Source: Parundibacterium terreum
GTDB taxonomy: Bacteria > Pseudomonadota > Gammaproteobacteria > Burkholderiales > Burkholderiaceae_D
DNA: 64,000 bases
NCBI RefSeq assembly: GCF_014636315.1
Contig: NZ_BMED01000005.1
Location: 372,001 to 436,000 of the forward strand
Reading direction: 5' to 3'
Notes under the pieces: generated by a model
What the model was told of the DNA's origin: nothing
Seen by the model: only the letters and a program-made list of their open reading frames with translations
Database searches by the model: none
Translations under genes and position numbers: made by a program
In this document: positions 36,705-54,494 of the stretch, one piece after another
How the letters are laid out: every line of letters starts with the position of its first letter
Numbering within the stretch: position 1 is the first letter of the stretch

Positions 36705-39700
36705 ATGAGCTCTGGCAGTGAGCAATTCGGATCCAATTTTGCAGGCATACGCGCTCGCATGCTGCTGCTCATCATCGTCATCCTGGTTCCGGTGCTGGCA
36801 CTCTACGTCCAATATGCGACTGTGACGCGCGAAATAGGCGAACAGCGTGAAATCAATGAGTTGCAAACCATGTCGCGCGAAGTGGCTGCGGCTACTGCGC
36901 GTATCAGCGATGCCACGTCGGCGCTGATACAGACTGTCGCGAATTTGCCCGAAGTGCGGCAAATGGATGCGGACGCCTGTCCGAAAACAATGAAGGCGCT
37001 GCTGGAGCGATTGCCGCGCTATTCGAATATCACAATATCAAACCTGAATGGCGACATCGTCTGCGGTGGATTGATTAGTACCGGAAAGAAAATCAATGTC
37101 GCCGACCGCATCTACTTCAAGGATGCCCTGGATAGCCACAGTGCGGTCGTTGGCGTTCCCACCATAGGCACCATCAGCGGCGAAGCCATATTGCCGGTTT
37201 CTTTTGCGGCGCGTGACGCCGACGGGCATGTGCGCTTCGTCATCGCGGCCTTCATGCGCCTGGGCTGGATAGCCAACGATGAAGGGCGTACCAAGAACAG
37301 GCCGGGTATAGGATTGATTTTTCTGGATGCGGAAGGCCGGATACTGGCAAGTTTTCCTAGCGAGATCGGCCGTGTAGGCAAGCTCCACCCTGTGGTGAGT
37401 CCCTTATTGCGCAGTTGGGAGGCGGCCTTCGTGACCAGGGGCATGGGCTTTGACGAGAAGCCTCGCCGCTATGCGGTAGATCCGGTCAAGCTGGGCGACT
37501 ACCGGTTCTGGATCGTGGCGACCCTTTCCGAGCAGGAGCTGTTTGGCGCACTGGAGCAGGCATTTGTAAGGAATATGATTGCGCTGGCCTTCTTTACGGT
37601 GTTTGCACTAATACTGGCCTGGATTTTGGCTGAGCGCCTGGTGCGGCGGCCCATGATGCGTCTTATCCATGTCTCGCAAGCCCTGCGCGCGGGTGACTTT
37701 TCGGCGCGGGTCGGAGGGCCGCGCATCAGCGGAGAAATAGGTATATTGATGGACCAGTATGACTTGACTGCGGCCGACCTGGAAAAGCGCGAACAGGAGC
37801 GCAGCAGGCGCGAAGCGGAAATCAAGGCGCTGAACCGGGTGTTGCGCATGATAGGCAACTGTAACCAGGTACTGGTGCACGCCATGGATAAGCAGCAATT
37901 ACTGCAGAGTTTTTGCAGGCATATTGCACAGGATGGTGGATATCCGCTGGTATGGGTCGGACTGCTGAAAGCCGACGTCCGGCAGGGCGTGGAAATTCTG
38001 ACGCATTTTGGCGAGGAGCAGGGTTACCTGAATATCGTACAGCTAAGCTGGGGCGATGGCACCCAGGGGCAGGAGCCGGCAAGCCGCTCGGTGCGGGAAG
38101 GGCGGCCACTGATTGAGCGGTATTTCGACGACGATGGCAATCCCGGATTTTGGCATGTGGAGTCTGTCAAGAGGGGCTTCCTGTCGTCGCTGTCCCTGCC
38201 TTTGCTCAGCAATGGCGAAGTGATCGGTGTGCTGTCAGTCCATGGTGCAGAAGCGAGGGCTTTTCCGGATACTGAAAAAAGCCTGTTTGAGGAGCTGGCG
38301 GCGGATCTCGCTTACGGTATCGCCGCCTTGAATGGCCGGGTAGCGCGTGAGAAGGCGGAGACGGAGTTGCGCCAGCACCAGCAATTGCTGGAACACAGGG
38401 TGGCTGAGCGTACTGCGCAGATATCTCTCACCAATGATGAATTGCAAAGAGAGATTGTCGATCACCAGATCGCTGAAGAGGCCTTGCGCAAGGCGGCTGC
38501 GTACGACCAGACGCAGCGCAAGACGCTGGCACTATTCAATAATGTGCGCGAGCGCGCCGAGCTGTTGCAGGGCATGTTTGAACTGCTGGCTACCGAGCAG
38601 GCGTTTCCGGTTGCCGCCTACTATGACTATGATGAATGGCGAGGGATATTTACGGCACAGTCGAGCTGGGGCATGCCGGCAGGTGCACCGCGTGAAATCC
38701 GGGTCGGTGAGGGGCTGGTAGGGCAGGTTGCACAATCAGGCAAGGCGATGCTGCTGCAGGACGCGGCTGAGACTGGCAAACTGGAAATAGATACCGGTAT
38801 TTTTGCCTTTAAGCCGCAGGCAGTATTGATGGTGCCCGTGATTTACCAGGAGCAGCGTTTTGGCGTACTGGTACTGGCATCGGCTCGCGAGTTGAGCCCG
38901 CGCGACCGTGATTTTGTCGATCAGTTGGCAGGCCAACTGGGTGTGGCCCTGCACAATCTGACACAGCATGAAAACCTGCAACTGCTGGCTACGCAGTTGC
39001 GCGTGCGCGGCGAGGAAATTACGCGGCAAAACCTGCAATTGGAAGATGCGAGCAGGATGAAGAGCGAGTTTCTGGCAAATATGTCTCACGAGCTGAGGAC
39101 TCCGCTGAATGCGATTATCGGTTTTTCAGAGATATTGAAAGAAAATCTGGTTGGCCAGCTGACTCCGCAGCAGCAGGGACTTACCAGGGATATTTATACC
39201 AGCGGCGAGCATTTGCTGTCGCTGATTAACGATATCCTGGACCTGTCCAAGGTCGAGGCCGGATATATGACGCTGGATATGGCGCCTTTACCTATCCAAC
39301 TGTTGTATAACAACAGCCTTTCCATCGTCAAGGAAAGGGCGATGACGCATCGCGTCAAACTGCAGAGCAATATCGATCCAGACCTGCCCGACATTGTCGC
39401 CGACCCAAGGAAGGTGAAACAGATTGTCTATAACCTGTTATCCAATGCGATCAAATTTACTCCTGAAGGAGGGACGGTCAGTTTCGATTTAAAACGGGCC
39501 GCAGCTCCCACCGCACCTCCCAATGGCAGCTATTTTGACGTCAGCACGACGGATACCGATTTTCTTGAGATTGTTGTGGCTGATACCGGCATAGGCATCC
39601 AGGCGGAAGACCTGCCACGCTTGTTCGAGCCATTTGTACAACTGGATTCTGCTTTGTCCAAGCACTATGAAGGCACAGGGCTTGGCCTGGCTATGGTCAA

Positions 39701-40700
39701 GCGCCTGGTGCAATTGCACGGAGGCGCGCTGGCGGTGGAATCGGTGCCGGGCGAAGGTTCCCGTTTCAGCGTGTGGCTGCCGTACAAGCTGGCCGGGGAC
39801 ATGCCTGCGCAGGCCGTGTTGCCGGTTGGACCGGTCTCCGGCGATGAAAGGATAGAGAGACTCGTCCCTCCGCGCCGCCATCAGCAGAATCACGCGCAGC
39901 AACGGTTCTCGGTGCTGATTGTAGAGGACGACGATCAGGCTGCGCATACGATGCGCCTGCAATTGGAGGCTGCGGGTTTGCAGGTCAGCCGGGCTGTAAG
40001 CGGTGAACACGCGCTGGAAGTAGCAGCTGCCGACCCTCCCGATGTGATTACGCTGGATATTTTGCTGCCCGGGATAGACGGCTGGGATGTGCTGACCCGC
40101 CTGAAGCAGGATGTCCGCCTGGCGCATATCCCGGTACTGATCGTGTCGATAGTGGCCGATGCGGGCAAGGGTATCAGCCTAGGCGCTACCCAGGTATTAC
40201 AAAAACCGGTATCAAGGCAGGATCTGGCAGACGCTTTTGCCAGCATAGGCATGCAGACAGGCAAAGCCAAACCTGTGCGTGTACTGGTGATCGATGATGA
40301 TCCCAAGGCGGTGCGTATCATCAGCACCCATCTTGAGCAGGACGGTTTCAGCGTCGAACGTGCGTATAGCGGTTACGAAGGGATTGCTGCGGCCAGGATA
40401 GGGCATCCGGATGTGCTGATACTTGATCTGATCATGCCGGAGCTGAGCGGCTTCGATGTGGTGGAAGCTCTGAAAACAGATGCAGCAACTGTTAATATAC
40501 CGATTATAGTCATGACATCGAAGATGCTGACGTCGGCGGACCGTGCGGCATTGAACGGACATATTGCTACAATCATTGAAAAATCTGCCTTCAAGCCCGA
40601 AACACTTATGAGTGAAATACATCGATTACTGCAAATGACTATGCGTAAAGAACATCAAAGGCAACTGGTGGTTGCCACTGCATCCTCAGAGAGGGAATGA
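36705..40700 (+). CDS. Hybrid sensor histidine kinase (Cache-HAMP-GAF-GAF-HisKA-HATPase-REC-REC)
   Basis: A 1331-residue membrane sensor. TM1 is at about 18-41, a periplasmic Cache-like region at 45-275, TM2 at 283-305 and HAMP at about 306-360. A first GAF domain lies at about 390-545, a helical linker at 550-625 and a second GAF at about 632-765. HisKA has phosphoacceptor His795 in MSHELRTPLNA, and HATPase shows DTGIG and GTGLGLAM. Two receiver domains follow, with Asp1118 (TLDILLPG) and Asp1241 (ILDLIMPE). The ligand is unknown. Its stop overlaps the next receiver gene and an HD-GYP gene follows, suggesting one pathway. Confidence 0.92.
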   Translation: MSSGSEQFGSNFAGIRARMLLLIIVILVPVLALYVQYATVTREIGEQREINELQTMSREVAAATARISDATSALIQTVANLPEVRQMDADACPKTMKALLERLPRYSNITISNLNGDIVCGGLISTGKKINVADRIYFKDALDSHSAVVGVPTIGTISGEAILPVSFAARDADGHVRFVIAAFMRLGWIANDEGRTKNRPGIGLIFLDAEGRILASFPSEIGRVGKLHPVVSPLLRSWEAAFVTRGMGFDEKPRRYAVDPVKLGDYRFWIVATLSEQELFGALEQAFVRNMIALAFFTVFALILAWILAERLVRRPMMRLIHVSQALRAGDFSARVGGPRISGEIGILMDQYDLTAADLEKREQERSRREAEIKALNRVLRMIGNCNQVLVHAMDKQQLLQSFCRHIAQDGGYPLVWVGLLKADVRQGVEILTHFGEEQGYLNIVQLSWGDGTQGQEPASRSVREGRPLIERYFDDDGNPGFWHVESVKRGFLSSLSLPLLSNGEVIGVLSVHGAEARAFPDTEKSLFEELAADLAYGIAALNGRVAREKAETELRQHQQLLEHRVAERTAQISLTNDELQREIVDHQIAEEALRKAAAYDQTQRKTLALFNNVRERAELLQGMFELLATEQAFPVAAYYDYDEWRGIFTAQSSWGMPAGAPREIRVGEGLVGQVAQSGKAMLLQDAAETGKLEIDTGIFAFKPQAVLMVPVIYQEQRFGVLVLASARELSPRDRDFVDQLAGQLGVALHNLTQHENLQLLATQLRVRGEEITRQNLQLEDASRMKSEFLANMSHELRTPLNAIIGFSEILKENLVGQLTPQQQGLTRDIYTSGEHLLSLINDILDLSKVEAGYMTLDMAPLPIQLLYNNSLSIVKERAMTHRVKLQSNIDPDLPDIVADPRKVKQIVYNLLSNAIKFTPEGGTVSFDLKRAAAPTAPPNGSYFDVSTTDTDFLEIVVADTGIGIQAEDLPRLFEPFVQLDSALSKHYEGTGLGLAMVKRLVQLHGGALAVESVPGEGSRFSVWLPYKLAGDMPAQAVLPVGPVSGDERIERLVPPRRHQQNHAQQRFSVLIVEDDDQAAHTMRLQLEAAGLQVSRAVSGEHALEVAAADPPDVITLDILLPGIDGWDVLTRLKQDVRLAHIPVLIVSIVADAGKGISLGATQVLQKPVSRQDLADAFASIGMQTGKAKPVRVLVIDDDPKAVRIISTHLEQDGFSVERAYSGYEGIAAARIGHPDVLILDLIMPELSGFDVVEALKTDAATVNIPIIVMTSKMLTSADRAALNGHIATIIEKSAFKPETLMSEIHRLLQMTMRKEHQRQLVVATASSERE

Positions 40701-40702
40701 CG

Positions 40703-41077
40703 ATGAAAGTTCTTGTTGTTGAAGATAATGAGGCCAATATGAAATTGGCCGTCATCGTGCTGGAAAGTGGCGGTTATCAGGTAGTGCAGGCGGTGGACGG
40801 TGCCCAGGGAATAGAGCAGGCAAGACAGGAGTTGCCCGACCTGATCCTGATGGACATCCAGCTACCCGGCACGGATGGCTTGACGGCTACCCGCATCCTC
40901 AAGGCGGACGCTGCGACCCGCCACATCCCTATTATCGCGCTGACGGCCTATGCGATGAAAGGTGACGATGAGAGGATGTTTGCAGCCGGCTGTGATGGCT
41001 ACATAACCAAGCCTATCCACTATCCCGAATTGCTGGCGCAAGTAGCGAGGCATCTGGAACGAGACGTGGAGAGGTAG
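40703..41077 (+). CDS. Single-domain response regulator (DivK/CheY-like)
   Basis: A 124-residue receiver-only protein, MKVLVVEDNEANMKL, with phosphoacceptor Asp51 in LILMDIQLPG, the conserved Thr/Ala in ALTAYAM and Lys in YITKPI. It has no output domain, so it must act by protein contact or as a phosphate shuttle. The motif pattern is nearer DivK than CheY. GAGGG lies 7 bases before ATG 40703; an ATG at 40697 overlaps the kinase stop (ATGA) but is too close to that signal. It is presumably a partner of the adjacent hybrid kinase. Confidence 0.9.
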   Translation: MKVLVVEDNEANMKLAVIVLESGGYQVVQAVDGAQGIEQARQELPDLILMDIQLPGTDGLTATRILKADAATRHIPIIALTAYAMKGDDERMFAAGCDGYITKPIHYPELLAQVARHLERDVER

Positions 41078-41261
41078 GCTGCATCGTTTATTTTGTCTGG
41101 ATTACGCCTGAATTTCGTCTGATTTTTGCCTAACTTGGCTGGGCCCTGCGGACAAGGCTGAGGTAATCCCGTAATCGGCAGCACAATCCAATCAAGCCGT
41201 AGCATCATGAAGCCGGCATAGCTTAACAGGCACTGGCAAGGAAGCACGAATGGAGGTAATG

Positions 41262-42329
41262 ATGGCGGACACAGACTCTCGCATACTCATCGTTGACGAC
41301 GATGTCCATAATGTGAAATACCTGGAGGCAGTGCTGGGTACCGGCGGCTATAGCACCAGGATTGCGACCCACGGCGAAGAAGCGCTGGAAATAACCGCGA
41401 TTTTCAAGCCCGATCTGATCCTGCTGGACCTGATCATGCCGGGTATAGACGGATTTGAAGTGGCGCGCAGGCTGAAGCTGGATCCAGCAACCAAGAACAT
41501 CCCCATCATCATGATCACGTCGCTGGATGACCGCGACTCCAAGATCCGTGCGCTGGAAGTGGGGGCGGAAGAATTTCTCACCAAGCCGGTGGACAGGGCG
41601 GAACTGTGGGTCAGGGTGAGAAATTTGCTGCGGCTGCGTGAATATACCAATTTCCTGGCCAACCATACCCAGATACTGGAAGGACAGATCAAACAGCGCA
41701 CTGCGCAACTGACCTCCAGCTATCGTGAAACCATACAAACGATGAACCGGGCTGCCGCCTACAGGGATGAGGAGACCGGTGCCCATGTGAAGCGCATCAG
41801 CTACTACTGCGTGGAACTGGCGGAAACCATGGGCATGAGCGCCGACTTTTGCGAGCGGATATTTTATGCAAGCCCCATGCACGATGTTGGCAAAATCGGA
41901 ATTCCAGACTCGATATTGCAAAAACCGGGTGGTTTTCGGGAAGATGAGTGGGAAATCATGAAATCGCATTCCGCCCTGGGAGCCAAAATGCTGGATGGCG
42001 GGGAGTCTCCCTACCTGACGATGGGCCGTGAAATCGCGATGTGGCACCATGAACGCTGGGACGGCACCGGCTATCCGCACGGCTTAGCCGGCGAAGAAAT
42101 ACCATTGGCCGCCCGTATCATGCAGATTGCCGACGTCTATGACGCATTGCGTTCCCAGCGGCCTTACAAGCCGGCCTTTACGCAAACCAGAGCGCTGGAC
42201 ATTATCCTGAACGGCGACGGACGGGTAATGCCGGGGCATTTTGATCCGCAGGTGCTGGATGCCTTCCGTATCAGTTCGCGCCGGCTGCTGGAAATATACG
42301 ACACCGAGTTTGCATCGGCAGGCCATTAG
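41262..42329 (+). CDS. HD-GYP response regulator (RpfG-like cyclic-di-GMP phosphodiesterase)
   Basis: A two-domain regulator. The receiver (about 6-120) has Asp56 in LILLDLIMPG. After a helical linker comes an HD-GYP domain with His207-Asp208 in HDVGKIGIPD, HHERWDGTGYPHG with the GYP triplet at 270-272, and IADVYDAL. All catalytic motifs look intact, so it probably hydrolyses c-di-GMP when phosphorylated. ATG 41262 lies 5 bases after GGAGG; the earlier in-frame ATGs at 41250 and 41259 overlap or crowd that signal. It follows the hybrid kinase and receiver by 184 bp. Confidence 0.92.
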   Translation: MADTDSRILIVDDDVHNVKYLEAVLGTGGYSTRIATHGEEALEITAIFKPDLILLDLIMPGIDGFEVARRLKLDPATKNIPIIMITSLDDRDSKIRALEVGAEEFLTKPVDRAELWVRVRNLLRLREYTNFLANHTQILEGQIKQRTAQLTSSYRETIQTMNRAAAYRDEETGAHVKRISYYCVELAETMGMSADFCERIFYASPMHDVGKIGIPDSILQKPGGFREDEWEIMKSHSALGAKMLDGGESPYLTMGREIAMWHHERWDGTGYPHGLAGEEIPLAARIMQIADVYDALRSQRPYKPAFTQTRALDIILNGDGRVMPGHFDPQVLDAFRISSRRLLEIYDTEFASAGH

Positions 42330-42410: not shown

Positions 42411-42500
42411 CTGATTCATCAATTGCTTGCCTTTCTGTTCAGTGATAATCCATGTTAGTAAAGCTCCGATTCGGGGAGCGACTCTCAATGGAGGCATAGA

Positions 42501-45500
42501 ATGGACGCAAAGGCATTGTCAAATAGATTGTCTATGGGAAATTTTTCCATGGATACGCATGCCGATTTAAGAGAAGAGTTCCATGCGTCGGAAGCTCCTT
42601 TTGAGTCTAATTCCCGGATAGACGTCAAAGGCATACGCGAGGCAATCGCCCGTGTCGAGGCAGAGGCCCGCGCTACCGTTGCCGCAGAAAATCGCGTGCT
42701 GGCAGAGGCCCGCGCCCGTGCTCTGGCTGAAGATCGCGCCCAGGTAGATGCCGAAGCCGCCGCTTTAGCCCGGCAAAAAGCCGAACTGGATAAGGATGTC
42801 CTCTCCAGTAATCGTGCGCGTCTGGAGGCTGAACGCCTGTCGCGCCAGGCGAGTGAAGCCAGGATCGCTGCAGCGAATGAAGAAACGCTGGAGCTGCAAG
42901 AACGCATCAAGATGGACGAGTTGGCGCGCCAGCAGACCGAAGAGCGCACCAAATCTGAAAAAGAAGCGAATAAACGGGCCGCAGAGCAACTGGAAGCCGA
43001 GGCTGAGCTTGGTGCCAAAGCCAAGCTCGTTGCCGAAAACCTGGCCAGGGAAACCCTGAATGCCCGTAACTGGGCCAGCGAGCGTTTTGCTGCATCCGAT
43101 GCAGCCCGCCAGGAAGCGGAGGAGCGCGCGCGTGCCGATTTGCGCATTGCCGAATTGGCCAGGGAGCGTGAAAAACGCGACCGCGAAGCGCGTGAAACTG
43201 CTGAAATGCTGCTGAAAGTCCGCACCGAAACCCTGCAACTGACCAAAGAGCGCGACGACGCCGATGCAATGGCGCTGGAGTTTGCAATCAACCGCGCACC
43301 GATAGAAGTCCGTGCACGCGAAGATGCATTGGCCAGGGTAGCGATGGAGCAGGAACACGAGGCAATGGCAAGAGCGCGTGTAGAGTCTGAGCGCCGTGCT
43401 ACAGAAGCGATACAGATGCGCCTGCAGGCAGAGACGGAATTGCGCAATGCGGCTGCCAAGCGGGAGCAGGCCGAATTGATCGCTGCGGCAACGGCGCAAG
43501 CCCGGCGCGATGCGGAAGAAAGCATACGCCAGGTGACAGAATCCCGCATCACGGCCGAGCGCGAATTGCAGTCTACTGCAATGCACAGGATAGAAGCGGA
43601 ACAACTTGCCGATGAAGAAGCACGGATACGGTTGGAAGCGGAAACTGCTGCCACTGCAGAGGCGCGTCGCCGCGCTATGCTGGAGCAGCATGCCGGGCAG
43701 GCTGCACAGCAGCGGGCACAGGAAGAGCAGCGGGCAGCCATGCTCGCCAAGGAACGTGCCGATAGGGAATCCGAATCCCTGAGCCTGGCGCGTGAACAGG
43801 CAGAGTCTGAACAGCAGGCTCTGGCAGCATCTACACTGCATGTCGAATTGTTGAAGAAAACCAGTGTGGCTGCGGCACAAGCGGCCGAGGCTGCGCTGGA
43901 ACTGGCACACGCCGAGCAGTCGCGCGTAGAAGCCGAGCAAAAGGTTGCGCGGACTATCCAGGAAAAACTACAGGCAGAACAGAAAAAGGTCGAGCAGGCG
44001 GAAGAGGCTGCAAGACTGGAGCAAGTCCGTATCAACTTGCTGAAGGAGCAGCAGGAAGTTGAAGCCCAGGTCAAGCTGGCGCGTGAAAAGGAATGCGCGG
44101 CTGAGCAAGCCATTCTGGAAAAGAACCAGGAGCAGGCCGAGCTGCAACAGCAAATCGCTGCACTGGCGGTCAAAAAAGAAGAAGACGCTGCAGAATTGTT
44201 GCGTCTTGAGCAGCAACGCGCGAACGATGAGCAAAAAGCGGCAGAACTGATGCGTGACAAGCTGGAAGTCGAGCGCAAACGTGCTGGCGCAGTACAGCAA
44301 GTCATCCTTGCCACGCAGGAAAAATTGAGCCTGGAGCAAGCTGCGCAGACAGAGGCTGAAGCTCGTTTGCAGGCAGAAGAAGAAGCGCAAGCAGTTGCAC
44401 AAGCCAGGGCTTTGCACGAAAAAGAAGCCAGGATGGCATTGGAGGCGACAGCTACCGCCGAGAAACATGCCCTAGAACAAGCAGAGCAGCTTGCCGAAAT
44501 GCAAAAGAAAGCCGCCAAACTTGCTTTGGTCAAAGCGCGCCAGGCGGTAGAGCTGGGCAAGGCAGAGCAAGTCCGCTTGCAGGCCGAGCATGAGGCCGTC
44601 GTTGCCGCTCAGCAAAAATTGGAAGCAGAACGCGCTGCTGCTGAAGAGGTTATCGCACGCGCCGTGATAGACCGCGAGCACGCGGCAGTGTTCCATCAGC
44701 GCCAGCAGCAGGAAGCAGCCGCCAAGGAAGCCCGTCAGGCAATGTTGCAGGCAGAACAGTTGCGCCTGGAAAAAATGACTGAGCATGCAGAGTTGCAACG
44801 CGAGTCCTCTACCATTGCCCAGACCAAAGTCGCAGAGGCATTGGAATTGGGCAAGACTTTGCGCCTGCGTGCCGAATCCGAAAAACGCGCCTTGGCTGTC
44901 GTTGAGCAAAAGCTGGCCGCTGAAAAGCAATTGATTATTGAGTTGGAGCAAAAAGCCGCCCAGGAACAGCAGCAACTGGATGTATGCAATGCGAAGTTGC
45001 GCGCAGAACAGGAAACACTCGCTGCGACTGCGATCAAGCTGGAAGCCGGGAAAAAATTACTGGCGCAAAACCAGGCTCAGGCCAAGTCGGAGCAGGAACT
45101 GGCATTGGCACTGAGTGCAAAAGCAAGCGTTGCGGAGCAATTAGCCAACGCTGAGAAGGAAAAAGCGCTGGCGCAGCAGCGCAATGTCGCTATTTTGCAG
45201 GAGCAGTTGCAAGCTGAGCAAGAGCGTGCCCGGATTGAGCAATTGCAAATGCAGGCAGCTCAGGAAAGGCTGAACGCCGAACAGGCAGCGCTGGCAGATG
45301 CAGCGGCGCGTGCGCAGGCGGAACAATTACAAGCCGAACTGGCAGCGGCGCGGGCCGTGGCTGAACAGCAGGCGAAAGGCGCAGCGCAAGCCAAGCTTGC
45401 ACAAGAACAGGAATTGCACGGCAGGGTAAAAGCATTTGCAGAAGTACAGCATCAGGCCAGGGAGTTGCTGGTTGCGAAGATGCACAAGGTGGCAGAGCTG

Positions 45501-47783
45501 GAGGAGGCTGCCGCGCAGCGCCTTGCAGCAGATGCGCAATTGGTCAAGCTCACCCAGCAAAAACTGGATACAGAGCGGCGTGCACGCGATGAGGCAAATG
45601 CAAAACTGCAGGCAGAACAGCAGTTGAAAGACTATGCCGATGCGCGGGAAAATGTGGAGAGGCAATCGCGTATTTCCACTGAGGCGCTGTTGCATGGCGA
45701 ACAATCGTTGTATCAGGAAATGGCGGCTCACGCAGAAGCGCAGAATCTGGTTGCCCAACTGACCCAGCAGCGTTTGCTGGATGAAAAGACGGCGCACACA
45801 TTGCAGCAGCAGCGCCTGCAAGCGGAGCAGGGCGCTGCCCAGATGATGGCGCAAAGGCAAGTGGCAGAAGCGCTGGCTTGCCAGGAAGCGCAGGCCCGGG
45901 CGGCTGCAGAACAGCAGCAGCTGAACTTGGTGCAGGAAAAATTGCGGGCGGACGCTGCAGTAAAAAGCGCCGTCGAAGAGTTGAATCAGGCGGAGCAGCG
46001 TTGGATCGCCTCTTCTGCCGAAGAGGCGGACAACAAGCGCGATGCTGCGCAGGCGCTGAATGAAAAGAATCGCTTGCTGGTTGAATCTGCAATCGCCGAG
46101 AAGGCGCGTTGCGAGGCTGATCAGCAGTTGATACTGGAATTGCAAGCCAAACTGGAAGCTGAGAACAGGGAGCGCGAAGCTGTCGCGCAGCGTGCAGAGT
46201 TTGAACATGGCGTTGCTGACGTCTCTCGCCAAAGGGCTGAGCTGGAAGAGCAGGCTGCGGCGGATCTGGCAGCGAAACTTGCGGCTGAGCAGGCTTTGTT
46301 TGCGAAATCGGCAGAACATGCGGAAGCGCAGCGGGTTGCAAATGAGGCTGTGCAAGAAAAGCTGAAGGTCGCTGCCGAAGTGGCTCGCCTGGAAAATGAA
46401 AGGGCAGCAGCGGAATTGAACGCTGCTGATCTGGTGCAGCGTAAATTGGCGATGGAAAAACTGGCTTTCACTGAAGCCGGCAAGCGCCAAAAAGCGGAAC
46501 AGGAATTGCTGGCGATAGCCGAAGCGAAAGCCAGGGCCGAGCATGAAGCGAACCAGAATATCCAGGCCAGGCTTGCCAGTGAACGGGAAGCTGCCGAATT
46601 GCTTGCGCAGCAAGCACAGATCGCACAGCAGGCAGCCGAGCTGGCCGAAATCCACGCAAAGGATATGCGTGAATTGCAGCAAGCCCAATTGCAGCATGCC
46701 GATCTGGAACAGGAAAAGCTGCTTGCAACACAAGAACAGTTGCGCTTGGAGCAGGAAAAGATCGCGTTGAATGAAGCTGCACTGGCTGCGATAGAAGAAA
46801 AAATCGCCGCCGAAAAAATGATTTTTGCAGAATCCGAACAGCGCGTGCGCATGGAACAGGAACTGTGCAGGCAAAGCGAATTGCGTGCTGAGCAGGAACT
46901 GGCTGCGCGCGAAGCGTCACAAGAGCGTCTGGAACTGGAACAAGAGTTGAATGCTGCTGAAGTTAAATTCGCAGAAGAGCAAAAACAGGCATCCAAACAA
47001 ATCGCCGCTCAACTGGAGCATCAGGCACTGCAACAGCAGCAATTGATACAACTGGAAGAAGACCGTCTGGTGGCGCAGCGTCAACTGGCTGAAACCATGC
47101 AGCAACAGCAAGTGGCCGAGAGCAAGCTGTGCGAAGAAGTTCTGCAGAAGCTCGCCCTTGAGCAGGAAAACAATGCATTGCTGCAGCAGCGCCTGGAACT
47201 GGAAGCACATGCAGTAGCGACTTTGCAGGCCAGCGTTGCAGCGGAACAGGCAGCGATGGAAGTGCAGCAGGCGGCATTGATTGCAGCGCAGCAGGCAGCA
47301 GCCGAAGCCAGTGAAATGGAGCGCCAGCAACAACAGGTCCAGGCGCAACTGGAGCAAGAGACTGAGGCCGCACGCCTGCAATTGCAGCGTGAAACCGAGC
47401 AGGCAGAATCAATTGCGAAAGAATTGCTGACCCGTTTCACGCAGAAAACTGAGCAAAACCTGGTTTGGCGTCATCGCGCTGAGGCAGTTTTGTCGGAAGC
47501 CCCGGTTGCCGTGGCCTTGCCTGCAAAACGCGCCGGCAAGCTGCGCACCTCGGTATTCAGCGGTATTGCCGTTGCGGCTGGCGTGGCCGGCGTTGTTGGA
47601 TGGACTACCCTGGATTTATCCCACGCTGCCGGCTTGGGCGCCAAAGGGGCAGTGCGTACGGCTGCTGTAGCCGGAGCGATCTCTCCTGCCAAGGCGGTAG
47701 ATAGCAAGCTGAAGATGTCCTACCAATTGGCCGCTGCAACGCCTGCGGCTGATGGCAATGAATTGAAGTTGGCACAGAAATAG
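42501..47783 (+). CDS. Giant coiled-coil protein with C-terminal membrane segment, unknown function
   Basis: A 1760-residue protein starting at ATG 42501, with GGAGG 6 bases upstream. Residues 1-40 are ordinary; about 45-1650 are an almost unbroken Ala/Glu/Gln/Arg/Lys-rich helical rod with variants of [KR]LxAE, such as IQEKLQAEQKK and AQERLNAEQAA, recurring throughout. There are almost no Pro or Gly and few Cys in the rod. A single hydrophobic stretch at about 1685-1704 (VFSGIAVAAGVAGVVGW) follows a basic GKLR, and the last 55 residues are Ala-rich. No signal peptide is seen, so it is probably a cytoplasmic rod tethered to the inner membrane at its C-terminus. It is not a recognisable SMC or TolA protein: no ATPase motif and no TolA ends. 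Its neighbours are a c-di-GMP regulator and EnvZ/OmpR. Confidence 0.85.
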   Translation: MDAKALSNRLSMGNFSMDTHADLREEFHASEAPFESNSRIDVKGIREAIARVEAEARATVAAENRVLAEARARALAEDRAQVDAEAAALARQKAELDKDVLSSNRARLEAERLSRQASEARIAAANEETLELQERIKMDELARQQTEERTKSEKEANKRAAEQLEAEAELGAKAKLVAENLARETLNARNWASERFAASDAARQEAEERARADLRIAELAREREKRDREARETAEMLLKVRTETLQLTKERDDADAMALEFAINRAPIEVRAREDALARVAMEQEHEAMARARVESERRATEAIQMRLQAETELRNAAAKREQAELIAAATAQARRDAEESIRQVTESRITAERELQSTAMHRIEAEQLADEEARIRLEAETAATAEARRRAMLEQHAGQAAQQRAQEEQRAAMLAKERADRESESLSLAREQAESEQQALAASTLHVELLKKTSVAAAQAAEAALELAHAEQSRVEAEQKVARTIQEKLQAEQKKVEQAEEAARLEQVRINLLKEQQEVEAQVKLAREKECAAEQAILEKNQEQAELQQQIAALAVKKEEDAAELLRLEQQRANDEQKAAELMRDKLEVERKRAGAVQQVILATQEKLSLEQAAQTEAEARLQAEEEAQAVAQARALHEKEARMALEATATAEKHALEQAEQLAEMQKKAAKLALVKARQAVELGKAEQVRLQAEHEAVVAAQQKLEAERAAAEEVIARAVIDREHAAVFHQRQQQEAAAKEARQAMLQAEQLRLEKMTEHAELQRESSTIAQTKVAEALELGKTLRLRAESEKRALAVVEQKLAAEKQLIIELEQKAAQEQQQLDVCNAKLRAEQETLAATAIKLEAGKKLLAQNQAQAKSEQELALALSAKASVAEQLANAEKEKALAQQRNVAILQEQLQAEQERARIEQLQMQAAQERLNAEQAALADAAARAQAEQLQAELAAARAVAEQQAKGAAQAKLAQEQELHGRVKAFAEVQHQARELLVAKMHKVAELEEAAAQRLAADAQLVKLTQQKLDTERRARDEANAKLQAEQQLKDYADARENVERQSRISTEALLHGEQSLYQEMAAHAEAQNLVAQLTQQRLLDEKTAHTLQQQRLQAEQGAAQMMAQRQVAEALACQEAQARAAAEQQQLNLVQEKLRADAAVKSAVEELNQAEQRWIASSAEEADNKRDAAQALNEKNRLLVESAIAEKARCEADQQLILELQAKLEAENREREAVAQRAEFEHGVADVSRQRAELEEQAAADLAAKLAAEQALFAKSAEHAEAQRVANEAVQEKLKVAAEVARLENERAAAELNAADLVQRKLAMEKLAFTEAGKRQKAEQELLAIAEAKARAEHEANQNIQARLASEREAAELLAQQAQIAQQAAELAEIHAKDMRELQQAQLQHADLEQEKLLATQEQLRLEQEKIALNEAALAAIEEKIAAEKMIFAESEQRVRMEQELCRQSELRAEQELAAREASQERLELEQELNAAEVKFAEEQKQASKQIAAQLEHQALQQQQLIQLEEDRLVAQRQLAETMQQQQVAESKLCEEVLQKLALEQENNALLQQRLELEAHAVATLQASVAAEQAAMEVQQAALIAAQQAAAEASEMERQQQQVQAQLEQETEAARLQLQRETEQAESIAKELLTRFTQKTEQNLVWRHRAEAVLSEAPVAVALPAKRAGKLRTSVFSGIAVAAGVAGVVGWTTLDLSHAAGLGAKGAVRTAAVAGAISPAKAVDSKLKMSYQLAAATPAADGNELKLAQK

Positions 47784-47819: not shown

Positions 47820-47853
47820 AACGGCTGCCCAGAAATGGGCAGCCGTTTTTTTA
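47820..47853 (+). terminator. Terminator after the giant coiled-coil gene
   Basis: An 11-bp perfect stem AACGGCTGCCC/GGGCAGCCGTT with a 6-nt loop, followed by a T run. It lies between the coiled-coil gene and the convergent envZ. Confidence 0.92.
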
Positions 47854-54293: not shown

Positions 54294-54494
54294 GGTAATC
54301 GTAGTAGTCTTGCCGAACGTAAAAAAGGCGGCGGGAAACCGGTGGGGGCATTGCTTAAAAAGCAAAATACTTTCCCTTTATTCGCTTAGCGGCGATAACG
54401 GCGGCTTGTTACGGCGCCGGTGGGGGATTGGGCCTTGCGCAGGGTTTTCCGCCGGCACTCAAGCTATCCGGTTTTCATAAAGGTTCTGCACGGT

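Follow-up and report, generated by a model that had tools for sequence, protein, structure and literature searches.

Background

To what is a very long bacterial coiled coil attached, and what might it organise? The question is raised by a large gene in a 64,000-nucleotide stretch of the Parundibacterium terreum genome (contig NZ_BMED01000005.1, positions 372,001 to 436,000; the window in what follows). The gene is present in all 36 near-complete genomes of its genus and in 265 of the 371 sampled genomes of its family, and its product has no family in Pfam, NCBIfam or PHROGs. Among the titles and beginnings of abstracts listed by a literature search, none is about the rod protein. Here we describe a conserved, uncharacterised family whose predicted architecture is clear. 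Judged from its sequence, the protein very probably has its coiled-coil rod in the cytoplasm, crosses the membrane with a single helix and ends in a tail on the periplasmic side.

The gene and its product

42501..47783, + strand: rod protein gene, ATG start, 1760 residues; homologues in 36 of 36 genus genomes at least 90% complete
42490..42494, + strand: Shine-Dalgarno sequence GGAGG, with the ATG 6 nt downstream
47820..47847, + strand: intrinsic terminator-like hairpin (12-pair stem, loop of 4) followed by T5

The initial annotation, made from the letters of the sequence, described a 1760-residue reading frame encoding an Ala/Glu/Gln/Lys/Arg-rich rod with a clean Shine-Dalgarno and terminator. 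These descriptions are borne out. The composition is A 23%, E 16%, Q 12%, L 11%, R 8% and K 6%, GGAGG stands 6 nt before the ATG, and the hairpin runs into TTTTT. Its stem is the longest among the 16 terminator-like sites of the window (shuffles average 10.6). Only six prolines are present, at residues 33, 267, 1668, 1674, 1729 and 1748. The gene is single-copy in its own genome. Long open reading frames lie antisense to it, for example 42485-44560 on the minus strand; its biased codon use is their likeliest source.

The heptad rod

42621..46940, + strand: heptad rod in one register, residues 41-1480, with a 14-residue charge repeat and two apolar seams
46941..47450, + strand: length-variable rod segment, residues 1481-1650, from homologue comparison
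42606..43790, + strand: conserved region, residues 36-430, opening near RIDVKGIREAIARVEAEARATVAAE, from an alignment of 29 sequences

One heptad register is held over about 1,350-1,400 residues, far beyond what shuffled sequences give. Over residues 41-1480 the power of Gln at period 3.5 is 35.2 (maximum of 1000 shuffles 6.8), that of K/R at period 7.0 is 26.6 (maximum 7.0) and that of ILVMF at period 3.5 is 11.6 (maximum 6.8). The phase was tracked in sliding windows of 140 residues. For Gln at 3.5 it stays between -0.08 and 0.36 in all 20 windows that start from 30 to 1360, and drift begins with the window starting at 1430. For charge at 7.0 the phase holds steady no earlier than about 170, and up to 1360; the first two windows deviate. 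Two apolar seams run along the rod, one residue apart.

The repeat detection and coiled-coil prediction that had been proposed as checks on the helical rod both support it. A 14-residue repeat is evident as 23% identity at offset 14, against 13% expected, and a D/E stands four residues after a K/R in 118 cases, where shuffling would give 40. No DNA-level tandem array was found as a source of the repeat, one short 15-base repeat being all that was present. A COILS-type score exceeds P 0.5 at 1281 of 1760 residues. This fraction is less telling, because composition alone already scores high (78% of real vs 64% of shuffled residues). More informative is the frame: the commonest one accounts for 58% of residues 41-1480 and the adjacent one for another 24%, whereas the leading frame of 50 shuffled sequences averages 21% coverage and never exceeds 28%. 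Among homologues, most anchored proteins have strong periodicities, and those of the short proteins are weaker. Exceptions with weak periodicity among anchored homologues are L057 and L115 and, for charge, L082, L117, L124, L129 and L130.

The region nearest the N-terminus, residues 36-430, has a mean column identity of 65% over 29 sequences that include the window protein and both anchored and non-anchored forms. Within the genus Undibacterium the length of the rod varies little. Between residues 145 and 1480 the net length change is zero in 24 of 25 homologues, which are 42-54% identical there; past residue 1480 length is variable. Gaps in the rod occur at 1.1 per 1000 aligned residues, 33 of 37 in rows where gaps cancel. 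For comparison, the neighbouring kinase has 0.2 per 1000 at 63% identity, the gene at 54420 has 0.2 at 55%, and other neighbours range from 0.0 to 14.9 (a DUF4124-like protein, 60%), with one pair at 39.5. The constant length fits a rod whose register matters, and is not unique to the rod. A ruler of fixed length was considered as a reading; it is weakened by the neighbouring genes with fewer length changes, and further by the 243 additional residues of L057 and the differing lengths across genera. Nor are gap lengths preferentially multiples of seven, as only 8 of the 158 raw gaps at residues 131-1599 are. Most of the remaining raw gaps lie past residue 1480. In L057, an Undibacterium protein, the 243 extra rod residues are placed around position 1000-1043, and the protein has little global heptad phase.

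Probable membrane segment and tail

47466..47468, + strand: Trp1656, invariant in 42 aligned C-terminal regions
47541..47609, + strand: probable transmembrane segment, about residues 1681-1703, from hydropathy; N-terminal side basic
47709..47729, + strand: tail motif LKMSYQL, residues 1737-1743; consensus L-[QRKH]-M-S-Y-[QE]-L

A single hydrophobic segment near the C-terminus, preceded by basic residues, had been noted from the sequence, and the hydropathy scan recovers it. In 19-residue means (cut-off of 1.4 for the segments of homologues) the best value is 1.65, only moderately hydrophobic, starting at residue 1681, and the basic KRAGKLR precedes the segment. Nothing exceeds 0.79 except in windows starting at 1651-1729. 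There is therefore no hydrophobic N-terminal signal, in line with the absence of a signal peptide that had been reported. Basic residues are more numerous in the 20 positions before the segment than after it in 42 of 47 homologues, with three ties and two reversals. By the positive-inside rule this excess would make the rod cytoplasmic and the tail periplasmic.

About 57 residues lie beyond the segment in the window protein, and the tails of homologues are 22-100 residues long. The initial annotation called the protein tail-anchored. This holds insofar as the membrane segment is C-terminal; membership of the strict tail-anchored class is rejected on account of the 57 or so residues, with a conserved motif, that follow. 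The linker between segment and motif varies from 14 to 62 residues across homologues and the motif is constant. The C-terminal alignment took in 42 of the 48 anchored proteins. Of all 48 tails, 45 fit a loose pattern for the motif and 35 a strict one; when the tails were shuffled 300 times, the mean numbers of fitting tails were 0.9 and 0.00. With three nested patterns taken together the motif is recognisable in 47, the exception being the anchored protein L118. Anchor and motif, or variants of it, are found in Undibacterium, Herminiimonas, Noviherbaspirillum, Keguizhuia, Sapientia and Solimicrobium. With its alternating apolar L, M, Y and L, the motif would resemble an edge beta strand. In the window's genome no second protein carries the Met-in-third-place form of the motif behind a C-terminal membrane segment. 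A pattern search of that genome gave 14 sites vs 15 for a control pattern; when the 14 frames were read, the site in the rod protein itself was the one case of a C-terminal motif that follows the membrane segment of a long protein.

Distribution of the family

Whole-protein matches were obtained in 51 of the 98 genomes searched, the window's own included. Within the genus 39 of the 42 other genomes have one, and the three without a match are 56-89% complete. Homologues in related genomes, whose existence the earlier reading left to be checked, were found more widely by a profile of the N-terminal 395 residues (29 members). It matches 265 of 371 sampled family genomes, in 19 of 40 genera, and all 36 genus genomes that pass a 90% completeness filter, again with the window's own included. 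The remaining 106 of the 371 family genomes gave no match to this profile, so the gene cannot be generally required. Of 300 genomes drawn evenly from the order, 15 match, eight of them outside the family and five of those eight weakly.

An alignment search of named genomes yielded 102 relatives, of which 80 were kept, and the same search with the single protein as query returned none. The named relatives are from Undibacterium, Herminiimonas, Noviherbaspirillum, Janthinobacterium, Massilia, Rugamonas, Keguizhuia, Sapientia and Solimicrobium. Among viral contigs 116 stretches fit the search pattern and none encodes a relative. A phage or mobile origin is rejected, given no PHROGs families, no viral relatives and housekeeping neighbours.

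Anchored and anchor-less forms

The window protein and those of 78 loci were compared, two open-ended proteins (L060 and L073) having been dropped. The C-terminal hydrophobic segment is present in 48 of these 79 and absent from 31. The anchor-less proteins, of 757-1075 residues, are from Janthinobacterium, Massilia and Rugamonas, plus L123 and L125. By eye, many of them stop at a stretch resembling the one that leads to the Trp and the membrane segment of the long form. A maximum-likelihood tree built from the N-terminal region unites these 31 proteins in one clade with support of 100/100, and with a midpoint root a single change of the anchor label is needed. The anchor was thus most simply lost once. 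Sister to this clade is the anchored L084, from a bin titled Janthinobacterium lividum. In another family of the Burkholderiales, the protein of L138 has 1103 residues from its likely start and a tail LRLAYEM; the hydropathy of its C-terminal segment is 1.33, under the 1.4 cut-off. A like segment and tail in this protein point to the anchor as the ancestral state.

A lack of conserved homologues with the same C-terminal anchor had been named as grounds for refuting the initial annotation. There are 47 such homologues besides the window protein among the 79, so the annotation withstands this check, with the caveat of the clade of 31 without the anchor. The membrane-tethered rod of the initial annotation stands, by sequence, for the window protein and these 47, and does not extend to that clade. 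The N-terminal region is kept in the clade that lost the tether, and the core function is probably located there.

Two homologues differ at their ends. That of L024 (G014) has 1476 residues and no membrane segment. That of L020 (G016) has 1737 residues, the first 90 of which are the same as in L024.

Gene neighbourhood

In the window a hybrid kinase with GAF and receiver domains (36705-40700), a lone receiver (40697-41077) and a receiver-HD-GYP protein (41250-42329) lie between the upp-like and rod genes. The kinase, regulator, hybrid kinase and HD-GYP domains were assigned with Pfam. The rod had been suggested to work with these adjacent c-di-GMP and phosphorelay genes. This did not hold up as a conserved association: the genus offers nine further loci with long flanks (L041-L049), and in all nine not one ORF had the window's hybrid kinase, lone receiver or HD-GYP gene as its best match. 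Their absence there indicates a local insertion in the window's genome, and a functional unit of the rod with them is rejected on this ground. At the nine loci the rod gene sits in a constant block, complete or partial, with uraA- and upp-like genes on one side and on the other a RisS-type kinase, an OmpR-type regulator and smpB-, ratA-, rnfH- and guaB-like genes. The names uraA, upp, smpB, ratA, rnfH and guaB are those we presume from the look of the proteins.

Elsewhere the neighbours differ. Kinases are also found upstream of the rod in Herminiimonas, though these are different ones that share about 30% identity with the kinase of the window. Loci of Herminiimonas and Noviherbaspirillum, and related ones, encode a TPR protein and an L,D-transpeptidase downstream of the rod on the same strand (clusters at 10 and 12 of the 80 loci). 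One TPR protein scanned with Pfam has TPR and Cds6_C domains and one transpeptidase has YkuD and Cds6_C. In L082 the flhC, flhD, motA, motB and cheA genes are near the rod (Pfam); the gene order of L084, as judged from a gene map by length and first residues, is like that of L082. An MCP and CheZ are near the rod in L089 (Pfam). What we take to be smc, zipA, ligA and galU neighbour the rod in Sapientia and Solimicrobium. No neighbour cluster common to all groups was found among the 80 loci, and no partner. Because the neighbours vary between genera, they point to no firm pathway.

Some details of these loci may be recorded separately. The TPR protein and L,D-transpeptidase genes overlap by one base in several loci (L079, 5196-7693, and equivalents), and the two proteins scanned both end in the Cds6_C NTF2-like domain. 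L082 and, judged from its gene map, L084 represent two lineages outside Undibacterium with flagellar master-regulator and motor genes by the rod.

Relationship to known families

The initial annotation held that the rod is not a recognisable TolA, SMC or phage tape measure protein, and the searches agree. At E 0.1 neither Pfam nor NCBIfam has a match for the window protein, Pfam has none for the 29 members of the N-terminal profile, and no PHROGs family is matched. NCBIfam matches for the 42 members of A3 are weak and scattered, the best (0.00026) being to apgM, in 5 of the 42. Against solved structures the N-terminal profile picks up three coiled coils, all from what looks like a single designed series, at E 0.00055-0.26, and the C-terminal profile gives 12 chance-level matches at E 0.23-4.2. 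Crescentin is not matched among the solved structures by these two profiles, which cover the N- and C-terminal regions.

TolA combines an Ala/Glu/Lys-rich helical stretch with a membrane helix at its N-terminus and a C-terminal domain in the periplasm. The rod protein is similar in its Ala/Glu/Lys-rich helix and its one membrane helix but has no N-terminal hydrophobic stretch and no match to the TolA family. With SMC and MukB it shares a very long coiled coil, but no ATPase head or hinge is matched and a probable membrane segment is present. Unlike a phage tape measure, it has neither phage context nor a family match.

The closest known system in plan is PodJ of Caulobacter. PodJ has 974 residues with six coiled coils and a disordered region, carries periplasmic TPR and peptidoglycan-binding domains, and scaffolds a signalling protein (PMC8980812). 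Both proteins have coiled coils in the cytoplasm, a single membrane anchor and a periplasmic C-terminus, the topology of the rod protein being predicted. The rod protein differs in being one regular rod with a short tail and no Pfam domain, TPR and peptidoglycan-binding domains included. Crescentin is also a long heptad rod associated with the membrane, to which the rod protein is probably attached as well. Crescentin attaches through residues 1-27, and a stutter interrupts the C-terminal half of its rod (PMC10873595). The likely anchor of the rod protein is instead a C-terminal membrane helix, and its rod is far longer. The hydropathy scan gives a C-terminal segment and no hydrophobic N-terminus; an additional contact through the N-terminus is conceivable. 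By analogy the rod protein may work like a PodJ- or crescentin-type scaffold, although the tests do not make it a member of either family.

Proposed role

We propose that the protein is a bitopic inner-membrane, envelope-tethered scaffold with a docking tail, a reading to which we give a probability of about one half. The N-terminal 1,650 residues would form a long, regular, alpha-helical coiled coil in the cytoplasm, presumably as an oligomer, and one C-terminal helix, predicted from hydropathy and positive-inside charges, would cross the membrane. Beyond it the strand-like L-x-M-S-Y-x-L, on its variable linker, could dock a periplasmic or cell-wall partner. The two apolar seams may let rods pair and bundle side by side. 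The tail would then set the position and the rod present binding sites within the cytoplasm; recruiting or organising cargo might fall to the N-terminal 400 residues, which are conserved. In the Janthinobacterium/Massilia clade the tether would have been lost once and the rod shortened, with the N-terminal region retained. Cargo, cellular place and partner are all what we infer.

Should the protein be a scaffold or tether, it would represent a new class of coiled coil with a natural contrast between forms with an anchor (Undibacterium) and without (Massilia/Janthinobacterium). It would also offer a short, testable docking motif and bear on how bacteria build long internal scaffolds. A bolder version is decidedly doubtful: a new class of envelope-anchored tether with a register of about 1,400 residues, a reach of up to about 240 nm if the rod is one extended helix, docking on the periplasmic side by a seven-residue strand motif, and shortening and release from the membrane once, in the Massilia/Janthinobacterium lineage. 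Such a tether would span a tenth to a quarter of a cell 1-2 micrometres long.

Other readings draw on parts of the same evidence. The long regular coiled coil with its second apolar seam, the probable membrane attachment and the occurrence in 265 of 371 family genomes are also what an intermediate-filament-like cytoskeletal element might have, forming submembrane filaments that set cell shape or stiffness as crescentin does. We regard this as possible, if somewhat doubtful. The rod is about four times the 308-350 residues given for intermediate-filament rods in PMC10873595, the likely anchor is the C-terminal hydrophobic segment and not an N-terminal peptide, and the profiles of the N- and C-terminal regions match no crescentin among solved structures. 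That the rod is an isolated single alpha-helix, a charged spacer and not a coiled coil, is very unlikely. The excess of K/R to D/E pairs at i+4 (118 vs 40) is what such a helix would have; however, charged residues make up just 34% of the rod, and the strong periodicity of apolar residues and Gln at 3.5 in a single register argues for a coiled coil.

Two more specific roles draw on the gene neighbourhood. The tail might bind a peptidoglycan-modifying partner, for example the L,D-transpeptidase encoded with the TPR protein downstream on the same strand in Herminiimonas, Noviherbaspirillum and related loci, making the rod a cell-wall-linked tether. This is quite improbable: the transpeptidase homologue of the window's genome is about 100 kb away from the rod gene, the Herminiimonas locus L082 has other neighbours, and with gaps to the rod of about 50-330 bp a shared transcript is conjectural. 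It is also unlikely, if less so, that the protein organises the flagellar pole or chemotaxis arrays, the rod being a spacer between envelope and cytoplasm. The flhD, flhC, motA, motB and cheA genes of L082, the like gene order of L084 (from the gene map) and the MCP and CheZ of L089 favour such a role, but no motility cluster reaches at least 6 of the 80 loci among the clusters listed, and in Undibacterium the rod neighbours are housekeeping and two-component genes. In a hand-picked sample, in which related species are not independent, FliG_C is found in 39 of 40 rod-positive vs 22 of 27 rod-negative genomes. The 22 rod-negative genomes that keep FliG_C, and the rod-positive G253 that shows none, leave at most a weak tie between rod and motility, and a flagellum does not require the rod.
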